Origin: Prochlorococcus sp. MIT 1307
GTDB lineage: Bacteria > Cyanobacteriota > Cyanobacteriia > PCC-6307 > Cyanobiaceae
Direction: 5' to 3'
DNA: 64,000 bases
NCBI RefSeq assembly: GCF_034092395.1
Contig: NZ_CP139301.1
Location: forward strand, 1,488,001 to 1,552,000
Shown here: positions 2,611-6,811 of the stretch, piece after piece
Layout: every line of letters begins with the position of its first letter
Position numbering within the stretch: the stretch's first letter is position 1
Notes under the pieces: model-generated
What the model saw: the letters and a program-made list of their open reading frames with translations, nothing else
What the model was told of the DNA's origin: nothing
The model's database searches: none
Translations under genes and position numbers: made by a program

Positions 2611-3003
2611 TTGGATGTGCCTGAGCTCGAACTCTGTCCATTGTGTGGTAAGCAAGTTTTAACTTCTCGCCATTCTTGGAATAAAGACAGAATCTTATGT
2701 AGGTCTTGCTTTGATTTGGAGAAGTTCAAATCACCTTCCACAAAGCCTTATAAACTTCTCACAGAAAGTGCATTTCAGGACTTTCCCACTAAATCTGATT
2801 TGTTATTAAGTAGAACTCAGAGATACTATCAAAATAATTCTGATAAGGATCATCAGGAAATCCTTGTTACATGGTCTTCTCTGGGTAAGATATTTACTGG
2901 CTTGATTTTGCTGGTTCTTTTGATTCTTACAGGGTATGTAACCTTAAGAAATGGGAGTGAAAAAACTCCTTATGAAGAGGCTTCTTCTTCGAAGATTAAT
3001 TAG
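2611..3003 (+). CDS. Zinc-ribbon-like membrane protein of unknown function
   Basis: The protein has 130 residues. The N-terminus carries CPLCGK followed by CRSCF (about residues 9-31), a two-CxxC zinc-ribbon arrangement. The middle is polar. One hydrophobic segment (about residues 92-112, IFTGLILLVLLILTGYV) is followed by a short charged tail. The predicted topology is a metal-binding head tethered by one C-terminal membrane helix. The only start near the ribbon is TTG at 2611, and no in-frame ATG lies closer, so the start is tentative. It converges on the next minus-strand gene. Confidence 0.6.
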   Translation: MDVPELELCPLCGKQVLTSRHSWNKDRILCRSCFDLEKFKSPSTKPYKLLTESAFQDFPTKSDLLLSRTQRYYQNNSDKDHQEILVTWSSLGKIFTGLILLVLLILTGYVTLRNGSEKTPYEEASSSKIN

Positions 3004-3058
3004 AGAAAGAACGGCTTCATGTTTTTCTATGAAATATGCTTTGAGCGATTTCTACTTA

Positions 3059-3490
3059 TTACTCTAAGGCATCTATTATACCTTCTGTAATATATCTAGC
3101 CATTTGCATTATATTATTGTCGATATCACGCTTTGCTGTACCCCATTTTGTTGATATTTTCTTAGATAATTTATTGGTTTTTGAGTATCTAATCATAGTA
3201 TTCGCAAGTAGTGGTGGGAGGTCTGCCTTGTTTTCTTCTGCTAATTTATCCCAACTTTCTGTATCTAATAAACCAATCGCTTGAATATCTTTTAATCCAG
3301 AGTATTTATATAGCTCCATTATCCCCACATATAAGAAAATCTCACCTAGTTGATGTAAAGGGCCTTCGCTTTCTTCTGATGCCTCATATTGCTTTAACAT
3401 TGATTCTAATTCGATGCTCTTGCCCTCTTCCCCTTCCTTAGCTGCATATAGAACCCTATAAAATTTGCTGAATTCAACTGGTTTTTCCAC
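3059..3490 (-). CDS. Hypothetical protein, 143 aa
   Basis: This is a soluble, mostly helical, charged protein with no recognised motif, signal peptide or membrane segment. It begins MEKPVEFSKFYRVLYAAKEGEEG and keeps balanced amphipathic composition throughout (LANTMIRYSKTNKLSKKISTK near the middle), which looks like real coding sequence. It is flanked by a convergent gene and by the large gene-poor stretch, so it may belong to the strain-variable gene set. Function unknown. Confidence 0.6.
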   Translation of the reverse strand: MEKPVEFSKFYRVLYAAKEGEEGKSIELESMLKQYEASEESEGPLHQLGEIFLYVGIMELYKYSGLKDIQAIGLLDTESWDKLAEENKADLPPLLANTMIRYSKTNKLSKKISTKWGTAKRDIDNNIMQMARYITEGIIDALE

Positions 3491-4081
3491 AATAGAGGTC
3501 AGGCAATATCGACCATACTACTGAAATTTAGTACTGTTGCCTTATGACCTTTGCATCCCTTTTGGGAAGTAATTTTTAGTAAATCAGCTTTTTGATGACT
3601 GCTTATCACGTTAGATTGCATTATTTCTTAGAAGGAAGGGCAATTTTTTGTAAATAGCTTTACCGTGATTAAATTTTGGAAAATTAATTGTAACCTTCTT
3701 TAAAGCAATATTGAGGTGTAATATTAAATTGCTTGTCTTTTTTTGGCACTATAATTGTTATTTAACTCTTTCTTCTTCTTCGTAAGATGGCTAACTGTAA
3801 AATGTTGTGCATTATGCTTTTCTGAGGAATGTATGAAAGGCATGTCTTCAGATAAATAATCTAGCGATGGGAGACAGGATAAGTAAAGAGCTGTGTCTTT
3901 AAATCCCTATTTCTTTTCTTTATCAATGATTTTGCAATTAGAAAAATATTTAGTACGATAAATTAAGCTTAACTTTGTTGACTTACTCCTCATAATCCTG
4001 AGTTCTTAATGTTTTCTCAACCGCTTTAAATGCTTATTTGTCTAAAAGGCGGTGCAAGTATTAGCAGGGCTCTTATGGTTA
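3491..4081. other. Gene-free stretch, 0.6 kb
   Basis: AT-rich sequence with stops in all frames. I see no convincing ORF, tRNA or strong hairpin. It contains T-rich tracts (for example around 3740 and 3770) and may hold promoters for unrecognised RNAs. Confidence 0.5.
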
Positions 4082-4300
4082 CTATTGAACTTTGTGAGAT
4101 TTTTCAAACTTGGTACTTTCCCCTTGTTCTTCGGAATAGAAGGGGTTGGGTATCTTGAAGTGTTTTTGGGAGTTCCTTTGCGGCTCTTTGGATTCAATTA
4201 AATTGGCCAGGGATCGCAAACCATTGGCGGTCACTGATCTTAAGCCTGGTGAAGTCCAAACGATGATCAGCAGTGTGCCAAGAAAGAGGTTTTTCAACAT
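4082..4300 (-). CDS. Small membrane protein, 72 aa
   Basis: The N-terminus MLKNLFLGTLLIIVWTSPGL is a single hydrophobic segment that could be a membrane anchor or uncleaved signal. It is followed by TANGLRSLANLIESKEPQ, an amphipathic helix, and a polar tail. This composition is typical of the small conserved membrane proteins of picocyanobacteria and unlike a random frame. A plus-strand frame over the same DNA (4146-4337) is its shadow. Function unknown. Confidence 0.65.
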   Translation of the reverse strand: MLKNLFLGTLLIIVWTSPGLRSVTANGLRSLANLIESKEPQRNSQKHFKIPNPFYSEEQGESTKFEKSHKVQ

Positions 4301-4602
4301 TGCAAGCCTTCTGTCAAATGACTTGTCTTGTCATTAGTTCTTTGGTGCATGTATTGGGTAGGTTCTCCTTCAATGATCCTGCTGATTCGGGAGAGAGCAA
4401 GACCTGTTTCATTCCTGGGTAATGAATATGAGCAAAATTGATTTCTTGGACGATGGTGATTTTGAAAATTGATGAGGTGGCTTGGAAATGGATGAGTGAG
4501 TGATCAGAGCTTTTGTGGCTCCAATCCTTGTTTGATGTTCAGATTCTTTCGGGCTAGATCGATGAGAAAGTTCGAACAGCTCTTCTTGTGAGACTGATGC
4601 TT
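4301..4602. other. Gene-free stretch before terminator-like hairpin
   Basis: I see no credible coding frame. The sequence ends in a terminator-like hairpin at 4603-4650, so an unrecognised plus-strand transcript (possibly an RNA gene) could end there. No known RNA family was recognised. Confidence 0.35.
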
Positions 4603-4650
4603 AAAAAGGCATCCAGTTATCTACCAGTGAGCAAGCAGGATGCTTTTTTT
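4603..4650. terminator. Terminator-like hairpin with flanking A and T tracts
   Basis: GCATCC (4609-4614) pairs with GGATGC (4638-4643). The stem extends through a G-T pair into AAAAA (4603-4607) against TTTTT, giving a helix of about 12 bp with a 23-nt loop and T7 at 4644-4650. The flanking A and T tracts could make it work in both directions. No recognised gene ends just upstream. Confidence 0.5.
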
Positions 4651-4710
4651 AGCCTTTTGTTTGCAGATATTTCATACCACTCGCTGACAAATACTCATCA
4701 AAGCATTAGA

Positions 4711-4777
4711 ACATGTATACGACACTCCTCACACAAGTTTGTCGGTATGGGCGTTGCTCGATGAGGACGCCCTTTTT
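4711..4777 (+). ncRNA. yfr1: Yfr1-like small RNA
   Basis: Positions 4724-4734 read ACTCCTCACAC, the ultraconserved unpaired core of the cyanobacterial sRNA Yfr1. About 15 nt downstream is a textbook intrinsic terminator: GGGCGT (4749-4754), a 12-nt loop, ACGCCC (4767-4772), then T5. The total is about 60-65 nt, matching known Yfr1 RNAs. Here the core sits in a 15-nt loop (4725-4739) closed by an 8-bp helix (4717-4724 with 4740-4748, one bulge). In the usual structure it lies between two hairpins. Known Yfr1 regulates outer-membrane porin mRNAs by antisense pairing through this core. The 5' end is estimated. A 103-aa frame starting inside it at 4713 is not believed. Confidence 0.72.
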
Positions 4778-5462
4778 CATGCCTGTTCTTCTGGCCCTCT
4801 ATCTCTATCGATGGATACCTTGCGATAATTCAGGTTTGAATCGCTCATGCCATACATGTATCCGCACTCTCTTGGGTGGTGACAATAAACAGGAAGTACT
4901 GAATGAAAAATGGAAGAGATTTGTTATTCCAGCAATGATGCAGATGCTGGGTATAAATACTCTATTTATGAGAAGGAATGAGAGGCAAGCTATTAGGCAG
5001 AGAGTATTCCTTGTATCTAATTGAGTCACGACTTTCTTGGAAAATATCAACTTGACGTTCAGTGGCTTGATGTGAAGTACTAATTACCTCGTAACCAATA
5101 ATTTGTTGACTGATTTTTTCTTTCAAATCGTCTGTTTCTTGAAAGATGATTGAACCTTGTTTACTAAGGCTTTTCCTGTCTTGTTTGGATTGCTGGAGCT
5201 CTTATAACGAACCTTTGGGTGGTTTGTACAGCAATAAATCCTGACTTACGTATCCAAGGATTTTTAGATGGTGGGTATCTTTGAGCAAGATGATCTGGAT
5301 TGGTCCAGTCAGAGAGTATCTTTTTGCGCGTTGGTAGGTAAGAATTGGATCTATAGGTCTACTCAGTTGCGAACTGACTTAGCTACCGGCTACTTACCGT
5401 GTCAATTAGGAAGAGAGATTTAATAATCGAGTTTCTGCAGTTGATTTGCGGGAAAGGTAAGG
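4778..5462. other. Gene-poor stretch, 0.7 kb
   Basis: Several short frames exist here. They include a 51-codon plus frame at 5268-5423 and an open minus frame between about 5200 and 4969 that lacks an ATG. None has recognisable features or a good start. It may include gene remnants or leader sequence for the downstream LpxB-like gene. Confidence 0.4.
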
Positions 5463-5533
5463 AGGCGGCACCCAGATTCGAACTGGGGATAAAGGATTTG
5501 CAATCCTCTGCCTTACCACTTGGCCATGCCGCC
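5463..5533 (-). tRNA. trnC: tRNA-Cys (GCA)
   Basis: Read on the minus strand this is a complete 71-nt cloverleaf. The acceptor stem is GGCGGCA/TGCCGCC with discriminator U. The D-arm contains AAGTGGTAAGGC, the anticodon loop reads TTGCAAA (anticodon GCA), and the T-arm contains GTTCGAATC. CCA is not encoded. It lies antisense to the region where the next plus-strand gene must start. Confidence 0.97.
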
Positions 5534-6811
5534 AATTCTGAGCATTTAAGCTCTTTAGCGGATCGTATCAGTCACACTCCTGCGAATCTATTATTTCTCT
5601 CGAATGGACATGGTGAGGACTTAATAGCTCTCCAAGTTCTTCAATCTTTGCATCAACTTCACCCTAGCTTGAATTTAGAGGTATTACCTCTGGTGGGAGA
5701 AGGCAAGGCATATGCGACTGCAATCTCTGAAGGGTGGCTTCGTCGAGTTGGCCCTTCGCTGCGTTTGCCTAGTGGTGGTTTTAGCAATCAGAGTTTTCGG
5801 GGACTAGTTCAGGATATTTTCGCGGGGCTTGTGAAGGGTACTTGGGAGCAATGGTGTTGTATTAAGACCAAGGCTCGTAACGGAAGAGTCATTATTGCTG
5901 TTGGTGACTTTTTGCCATTACTTTTTGGATGGTGCAGCGGAGCCTCATTTGGATTTATAGGGACTCCAAAGAGTGATTACACCTGGAGAAGTGGTCCTGC
6001 TTATGCACTTAGTGATTATTACCATTCATGGAAAGGTACTGAATGGGATCCTTGGGAGTATGCCCTTATGCGGTCTTCTCGCTGCAAGATGGTTGCAGTA
6101 CGGGATCATTTGACTGCACGTGGATTAAGAAAGCATGGAGTGGCAGCTTATTTCCCTGGTAATCCCATGATGGATAACCTTCAGGGAGTTGAATTACCTC
6201 AAGCTTTAAAAGGCTTTCGTCGTTTGTTATTACTTTGTGGTAGTCGGGTCCCAGAGGCGAAGGTTAATTTTAAACGCCTCATACATGCCATTTCATTTTT
6301 AAACAGCAAAACTCCGATCAAGATTTTGGTCCCCTTGGGCTCCTCACCTTCAGTAACTGAACTTGAAGAGTTATTGGATGAATTGGGATATCGACAATTT
6401 TCATGTCCTGGCAATCAAATTGGCGTAAATACCTTTTGGAAAAATGGTTTTTGCAATGTTTTCTTAGGACCAGGAAAATTTAGCCTTTGGGTTTCTTGGG
6501 TCGAGATTGGATTAGCAACAGCAGGTACCGCTACAGAGCAATTGGTTGGACTGGGCATTCCTGCGTTGTCTTTGCCAGGTGAAGGGCCTCAGTTCAAGCG
6601 CAGCTTTGCTTTGCGTCAGAGTCGATTGCTTGGAGGGGCAGTCATGCCTTGCAGAAGTCCAGGCTTGTTGGCTGAACATCTAGAAACTTTGCTTAATGAT
6701 GCTTCTCTTCGGGAGCGGATAGGCAGAGTTGGATCAAGAAGAATGGGCTCAAGCGGAGGAAGTAGTGCATTGGCAGCCCTGATTTCGAAATTTTTATTAG
6801 AGCATGCATAA
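5498..6811 (+). CDS. LpxB-related (lipid-A-disaccharide synthase-like) protein
   Basis: This is the cyanobacterial LpxB-related family, a GT-B-fold glycosyltransferase-like protein. Visible motifs are FLSNGHGEDLIALQ (positions about 5594-5635), VGDFLPLLFGW, FIGTPKSDYTW, FPGNPMMDN, and a late donor-site-like stretch ATAGTATEQLVGLGIPALSLPGEGPQ. True LpxB joins two acylated glucosamine units; the substrate of this family is not established. The start is a problem. Between the tRNA-Cys and the conserved motif there is no in-frame ATG, GTG or TTG. The nearest is TTG 5498 inside the antisense tRNA, and other candidates are TTG 5441 and GTG 5399. A rare ATC near 5567 is possible. The function call rests on the motifs. 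Confidence 0.85.
   Translation: MQSSALPLGHAANSEHLSSLADRISHTPANLLFLSNGHGEDLIALQVLQSLHQLHPSLNLEVLPLVGEGKAYATAISEGWLRRVGPSLRLPSGGFSNQSFRGLVQDIFAGLVKGTWEQWCCIKTKARNGRVIIAVGDFLPLLFGWCSGASFGFIGTPKSDYTWRSGPAYALSDYYHSWKGTEWDPWEYALMRSSRCKMVAVRDHLTARGLRKHGVAAYFPGNPMMDNLQGVELPQALKGFRRLLLLCGSRVPEAKVNFKRLIHAISFLNSKTPIKILVPLGSSPSVTELEELLDELGYRQFSCPGNQIGVNTFWKNGFCNVFLGPGKFSLWVSWVEIGLATAGTATEQLVGLGIPALSLPGEGPQFKRSFALRQSRLLGGAVMPCRSPGLLAEHLETLLNDASLRERIGRVGSRRMGSSGGSSALAALISKFLLEHA

Follow-up and report, generated by a model that had tools for sequence, protein, structure and literature searches.

A probable, nearly emptied gene-exchange site beside tRNA-Cys in Prochlorococcus sp. MIT 1307 that probably retains a Yfr10-type sRNA and a relic recombinase cassette

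We analyzed a window of 64,000 nucleotides from Prochlorococcus sp. MIT 1307, whose genome is a single contig of 2,032,419 bases, and within it the interval 3491–5460, which lies between an open reading frame (ORF) of 143 amino acids (aa) on the left and a tRNA-Cys gene on the right. The interval is probably a gene-exchange site that has been nearly emptied in this strain, where the relic of a small recombinase cassette remains and a small RNA (sRNA) has survived. Most likely, as far as the sequence indicates, the genes for the sRNA and for a small protein are still whole, and of the recombinase gene there are only fragments (Table 1). On the minus strand, the relic would comprise a 72-aa ORF together with a serine recombinase, which would stand head-to-head with a Yfr10-type sRNA on the plus strand; in that case the cassette would once have been intact here and may have been delivered by recombination at or near the tRNA.

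Table 1 Features in and around the interval next to tRNA-Cys, with window positions
Feature	Position	Strand	Basis
143-aa ORF, left border	3059..3490	-	Homologues in 34 of 99 genomes, own included
AT-rich stretch	3491..4081		31.5–32.5% GC in 200-base steps
72-aa ORF	4082..4300	-	Conservation; missed by the sequence-only reading
C-terminal helix-turn-helix fragment, serine recombinase	4366..4452	-	Profile positions 177–205, E 0.0014
Second Yfr10-type sRNA-like copy, degenerate	4572..4655	+	Alignment with L067 element; folding
Promoter-like site, CTGACA - 17 nt - TAGAAC	4684..4712	+	Sequence, upstream of the sRNA
Yfr10-type sRNA (ends estimated)	about 4719..4778	+	Covariation in 69 copies; R1 model
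N-terminal fragment, serine recombinase	5031..5129	-	Profile positions 13–45, E 0.0005
tRNA-Cys with conserved 3' flank	5405..5533 (tRNA 5461–5533)	-	Flank comparison with relatives

At each of four ORF cut-offs, the longest stretch of the 64-kb window free of ORFs fell inside the interval (591 bp at 60 aa, 1,222 bp at 80 and 100 aa, and 1,908 bp at 120 aa; median gaps in the window 55–82 bp), with gap sizes taken from greedy ORF calling, so that the ORFs are mechanical and not curated genes. A two-kilobase stretch had been described from the letters alone as gene-poor, with about 1.75 kb lacking convincing genes, of which the first part stands and the second does not, a conserved 72-aa ORF being present. 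GC content was 38.4% in 3491–5462 and 43.2% in the whole window, and 31.5–32.5% in 3491–4090; neither gene nor relative was found in 3491–4081, except for the first ~40 bases adjoining the 143-aa gene. The 143-aa protein had no match in Pfam, PHROGs or NCBIfam at the thresholds used. To its left, at window positions 2611–3003, a 130-aa ORF had weak zinc-ribbon-like matches below the cut-offs, and beyond the tRNA lies a lipid-A-disaccharide synthase-related gene (5588–6808; TIGR03492, 460 bits). A blastn search of the interval against 50,697 phage records returned no match at E 0.01, and the exact 18-mer CGACACTCCTCACACAAG was absent from IMG/VR (exact search only), such that carriage of the interval by phages is not supported within the phage records and IMG/VR searched. 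Sub-threshold Rfam matches in the interval at E 5 were SNORD64 and GlsR14, chance hits of snoRNA models away from the sRNA; no Rfam family matched the motif copy at 4724–4734.

The sRNA carries ACTCCTCACAC (11 nt) at 4724–4734 in a hairpin loop, with ACUCCUCACAC likewise in the loop, ahead of a terminator hairpin (4749–4772) and a T run (4773–4777); the 2.03-Mb genome holds two exact copies of ACTCCTCACAC. A 101-base query around the motif matched 52 of 201 family genomes, and the loci that we fetched include some, not all, of the places matched by this query. From these loci 94 matches were extracted, 16 of them without CTCCTCACAC, and 73 distinct matches with the motif and full flanks were kept, of which four with damaged or shifted hairpins were omitted before alignment (L099:8305, L085:14688, L132:1409 and L133:4062). 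The 69 aligned copies share two helices with 13 pairs, and 99.0% of cells were standard-paired, where motif invariance is by construction and the paired-cell percentage is flattered; versions of the alignment slid out of register reached at most 62.7%. Double changes occurred in nine of the 13 pairs, with 75 double-change cells versus a shuffled mean of 12.7, and none of 500 shuffles was as high. RNAalifold recovered the same helices and two further pairs, and single-sequence folding of the window copy was only mildly stable (z = −1.41). These comparisons give strong covariation support to the structure of the predicted Yfr10-type sRNA in the window. The TAGAAC box of the promoter-like site upstream is in register with a box conserved among other sRNA copies, while a consensus promoter scan did not list the CTGACA/TAGAAC site.

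A covariance model built from the 69-copy alignment (R1) matched 62 of 201 genomes, including strong matches in G115, and gave one strong match in the window's own genome (4715–4782, 88.3 bits). Two weak matches elsewhere in that genome (22 and 20.7 bits) were set aside; one is a terminator-like hairpin, judged by eye, and the other falls in a frame that we take to encode ribosomal protein S1. We also rejected as genes the ORF at 4713–5024 (+) and others overlapping the sRNA, since nearly all similarity stopped with the sRNA among the matches shown.

The sequence-only reading had called this a Yfr1-like RNA, which holds for the motif alone. ACUCCUCACAC is common to Yfr1 (RF01116) and the window RNA, whereas locus and fold differ, and the Rfam Yfr1 model missed the interval even at E 5 but matched the genome's other motif copy at 62.7 bits, for which reason Yfr1 identity was rejected. 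That other copy sits between ORFs which are presumably guaB and trxA, and a Yfr1 query matched 145 of 201 genomes, with a single match in nearly every one. A Yfr1 orthologue moved to a new site would explain the identical 11-nt motif, but given the match of the Rfam model to the other copy and the position of the window motif in a hairpin loop, we give this explanation almost no chance of being right. According to the excerpts of PMC6778093, the motif lies in a hairpin loop in Yfr10 and is single-stranded between two stem-loops in Yfr1.

The window RNA resembles Yfr10 (RF02362; excerpts of PMC2518516 and PMC6778093) in placing the 11-nt motif in the loop of one hairpin and a terminator hairpin after it, within about 60–80 nt, while its stem and terminator sequences differ. 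RF02362 had no match to the interval at E 5 nor, under stricter filters, in the whole genome, and the window sRNA is therefore not filed as a member of that family; among 101 family genomes the model matched six, four of them over its cut-off, and the window's genome was not among them. R1 weakly matched nine g18 genomes (E about 1e-5 to 1e-3), and its place in G192 (346659–346733) is that of the MED4 Yfr10 as published (346661..346738; excerpt of PMC2518516), where the Rfam Yfr10 match reached 99 bits (locus L192). In all four g18 high-light loci scanned, a Cyano-1 (Yfr2) match lay 62–87 bases beyond Yfr10, unlike in the window, where RF01701 (Cyano-1) had no match within 3000–5700; exact GTGTGTAGGAG was also absent from the genome. 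Excerpts of PMC6778093 further report Yfr10 in SS120 and Yfr104, a further low-light sRNA of MIT9313 with the Yfr1 motif. G017 has two exact motifs, one of which is a tRNA-Cys copy. In MED4 the exposed motif pairs with mRNAs and Yfr2 RNAs, and the ppa footprint was abolished by changing UCCU (excerpts of PMC6778093 and PMC2518516). Judged by its structure and its motif, the RNA of the window should work as MED4 Yfr10 does: it would be transcribed, and its loop-exposed ACUCCUCACAC would pair with mRNAs and Yfr2-type RNAs.

Another terminator-like hairpin had been noticed in the gap, and it bore scrutiny: 4600–4656 folded better than most shuffles (z = −2.36, seven of 200 as good), with the terminator-like hairpin at about 4603–4650. 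When 4572–4655 was aligned with the L067 element from the same interval of G004, of the same genus, the score was 76, compared with at most 40 in 1,000 shuffles. In this test no shuffle out of 1,000 reached the score for the L067 and L132 elements alone; six shuffles reached it with L085, 10 with L194 and 23 with a high-light Yfr10, and 116 of 1,000 did so with the window's own Yfr10-type copy. The L067 element has ACTCCTCAC in its loop and scored 27.1 bits with Rfam Yfr10, under the cut-off of 43, and hairpins with the same loop are present in other island loci. We read the second hairpin as a further, degenerate Yfr10-type copy, and with its motif altered it is probably dead or changed. An expectation of more unknown RNAs in the gap was borne out by the sRNA with covariation and this second degenerate copy. 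A second sRNA-like architecture, of which window 4572–4655 is a degenerate member, was observed at L085, L074, L132, L133, L126 and L067; it comprises a promoter-like TTGACG, a stem-loop with Yfr1-motif variants and a terminator hairpin with loop ACCAGTGAGC.

Recombinase remains were assessed by searching a profile of 16 recombinase sequences, taken from the fetched loci, against all 1,865 stop-to-stop pieces of the window. Two pieces had E < 0.01, at 4965–5201 (−) and 4297–4503 (−), both in the interval and on one strand, where E-values refer to the window's own pieces; the next-best piece had E 0.88, and the best of the reversed window 2.8. The fragments within them are 33 (N-terminal) and 29 (C-terminal) residues long, and neither piece had a Pfam or PHROGs match. 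The C-terminal fragment was also matched to relatives' recombinases by tblastn, and the N-terminal fragment shows 79% DNA identity over 72 bases to G010, where a similar N-terminal fragment with a stop lies beside the tRNA-Cys. C-terminal fragments were found with the same profile in G001 and G008 (30 loci). Read along the minus strand, the N-terminal fragment precedes the C-terminal one, with start points 677 bases apart versus 492 in an intact gene; the fragments are thus 185 bases too far apart for one intact gene and have the sRNA between them, so that they would represent either two relics or one disrupted gene. The profile search did not find the middle of the gene between them, and a single open frame with a Resolvase domain, catalytic serine and C-terminal helix-turn-helix is absent, leaving fragments only and a recombinase that appears to be at most a relic. 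Uninterrupted relatives of this Resolvase/DNA invertase class beside the sRNA carry PF00239 (4/4 tested) and PHROG 125 (2/2 tested), in contrast to the two short fragments remaining here. Remnants of deleted genes, the other content proposed for the gap, are accordingly represented by the two serine-recombinase fragments. The sequence-only reading had counted a gene that is normal in relatives and broken here against itself; the recombinase, uninterrupted in relatives, comes close to such a gene, and it favours the 'remnants' half of that proposal.

The 72-aa ORF had matches in 12 of 60 genomes, own included, at 31–52% identity outside its own genome. Across eight chosen homologues, 12 columns were invariant, among them a C-terminal NPFY, and the DNA was 69% identical to that of G006 over 165 window bases within the frame. 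Several of the relatives' places had stop codons inside the matched stretch, so not all copies need be intact. The protein had no match in Pfam, PHROGs or NCBIfam, and a hydrophobic N-terminus, judged by eye, makes a small membrane protein possible. A plain deletion scar, in which ordinary genes decayed at random and the motif and small ORF are there by chance, would account for the AT-rich stretch without relatives, for the degenerate second hairpin and for the presence of gene fragments, but covariation of the sRNA and conservation of this ORF would not be expected, which makes such a scar highly improbable.

Relatives show the parts of the proposed cassette in association. G027 (L193, genus g21) has a homologue of the 72-aa ORF (−), two small ORFs (−), an uninterrupted recombinase (−) and the sRNA (+), followed by a long ORF (+) that is similar to the TPR protein of L095, and G048 (L103) has the sRNA (−), the recombinase (+) and a 72-aa ORF homologue (+). 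Within the same genus as the window, G006 has a 72-aa ORF, a weak C-terminal recombinase fragment (E 0.016; 30-locus set) and the sRNA, ordered as in the window. A divergent recombinase match occurred within 1 kb upstream of only 13 of 93 sRNA copies (nine long and four fragmentary), and two copies (G008 and G021) had a recombinase within 1 kb in another geometry. Nine of 15 full-length recombinases were divergent (head-to-head) and at most 250 bp from an sRNA (80 loci, 757,406 bases). Random placement inside these loci, repeated 2,000 times, gave 0.256 on average and never more than 3; the loci had been chosen for holding an sRNA copy or the 143-aa gene/tRNA-Cys region. The two query recombinases were only ~26% identical, so the pairing does not go back to one recently copied unit.

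We tentatively propose, at somewhat less than even confidence, that low-light Yfr10-type sRNAs travel on small serine-recombinase cassettes as a head-to-head mobile unit with up to several copies per genome. Incoming islands would then shift how much a host has of a regulatory RNA motif whose pairing partners are metabolic mRNAs and Yfr2. The recombinase's own crossover site may lie in the divergent intergenic region between recombinase and sRNA. No description of an sRNA-recombinase pairing in Prochlorococcus was found among the literature matches listed (open-access titles and abstract openings). Other neighbors were also observed. A 68-aa ORF (L070:4930–5133 and homologues) adjoins the recombinase in several loci and matches PHROGs 16908 and 869, which are function-unassigned phage protein families. 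In L126 and some nine further island copies, an ion-channel gene is found within 1 kb of the sRNA, mostly on its strand and downstream of it, at a median distance of 253 bp; the single gene tested, that of L126, carries PF00520. Many sRNA copies in islands, such as those of L138, L092 and L099, are followed by a conserved block CGTGAGGAGTTGAGATCCTCCGAGCAG, absent beside the window copy, which includes GTGAGGAGT, the exact complement of ACTCCTCAC; the GTGAGGAGT block is a possible pairing partner of the sRNA.

The position of the sRNA relative to tRNA-Cys was assessed for the 93 distinct copies in the fetched loci, which came from 51 genomes (one copy in 27 genomes, two in 10, three in 10 and four in four). 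Fourteen copies, in genera g1, g4, g11, g17 and g40, pointed at a tRNA-Cys within 2.5 kb and two pointed away, while for 77 the available stretch, in some cases a short contig, showed no match to tRNA-Cys within 2.5 kb. G122 and G046 each have a single exact motif, that of the tRNA-Cys copy. The sRNA was beside the tRNA at 12 of the 13 fetched tRNA-Cys loci of g11, g17 and g40, and none of the 13 had a recombinase match, which indicates that the sRNA at tRNA-Cys does not need the cassette. These three observations would also fit a tRNA-Cys Yfr10-type RNA that is an old vertical gene of low-light lineages, with islands, carrying recombinases or not, merely inserting beside it and the fragments coming from unrelated visitors. 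We nevertheless consider an old vertical gene unlikely, since the window and G006 keep the ORF, recombinase fragment and sRNA in cassette order and sites elsewhere show the head-to-head pairing again. Among same-genus site loci, G001 (one side only), G003, G004 and G005 had no R1 match above 20 bits, and in G001, G003 and G005 R1 found sRNA copies elsewhere in the genome. Yfr10 homologues are described in the excerpts of PMC6778093 as having no conserved synteny and very low structural conservation, compared with which synteny appears partly conserved for the low-light subfamily.

Site occupancy in relatives is consistent with an exchange site that is nearly empty here, for which tRNA-Cys and its 3' flank are the likely anchor. 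In the window, 1,970 bp separate the 143-aa gene from tRNA-Cys; seven relatives with the same borders have 2,511, 2,584, 3,010, 5,950, 6,461, 7,669 and 11,723 bp there, and in the relative with 2,584 bp the homologue of the 143-aa gene is only 39% identical. Twelve of 15 cargo proteins tested from five loci were over the Pfam cut-off, one was below it and two had no match. Those over the cut-off, several of them sugar or surface enzymes, were FkbM methyltransferase, ABC transporter, Stealth protein, hexapeptide transferase, NeuB, AMP-binding enzyme, shikimate dehydrogenase, DAHP synthase, GFO/IDH/MocA oxidoreductase, glycosyltransferase, cytidylyltransferase and a metallo-beta-lactamase-fold protein. 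In L071 the tRNA-Cys 3' end and flank are directly repeated (L071:1874–1944 and L071:8493–8526), bracketing about 6.5 kb that holds a recombinase and an sRNA; such a direct repeat was absent in 29 of 30 loci with a match, and the window has one match. tRNA-linked genomic islands, or tycheposons, carry variable cargo next to a tRNA gene in Prochlorococcus. The site resembles them in its variable cargo beside a tRNA and, at one locus (L071), in the direct repeat of the tRNA 3' end, but differs in that the recombinases found here are of the serine class.

The low-light subfamily thus has a well-supported structure, sits repeatedly at tRNA-Cys across several genera and reaches four copies per genome in the fetched set. 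If the pairing with recombinases is functional, mobile elements would carry a host-type regulatory RNA, and this would open regulation by islands to testing in an organism that has few protein regulators. Regulatory genes may persist in a gap of a streamlined genome once the cargo there has been lost.
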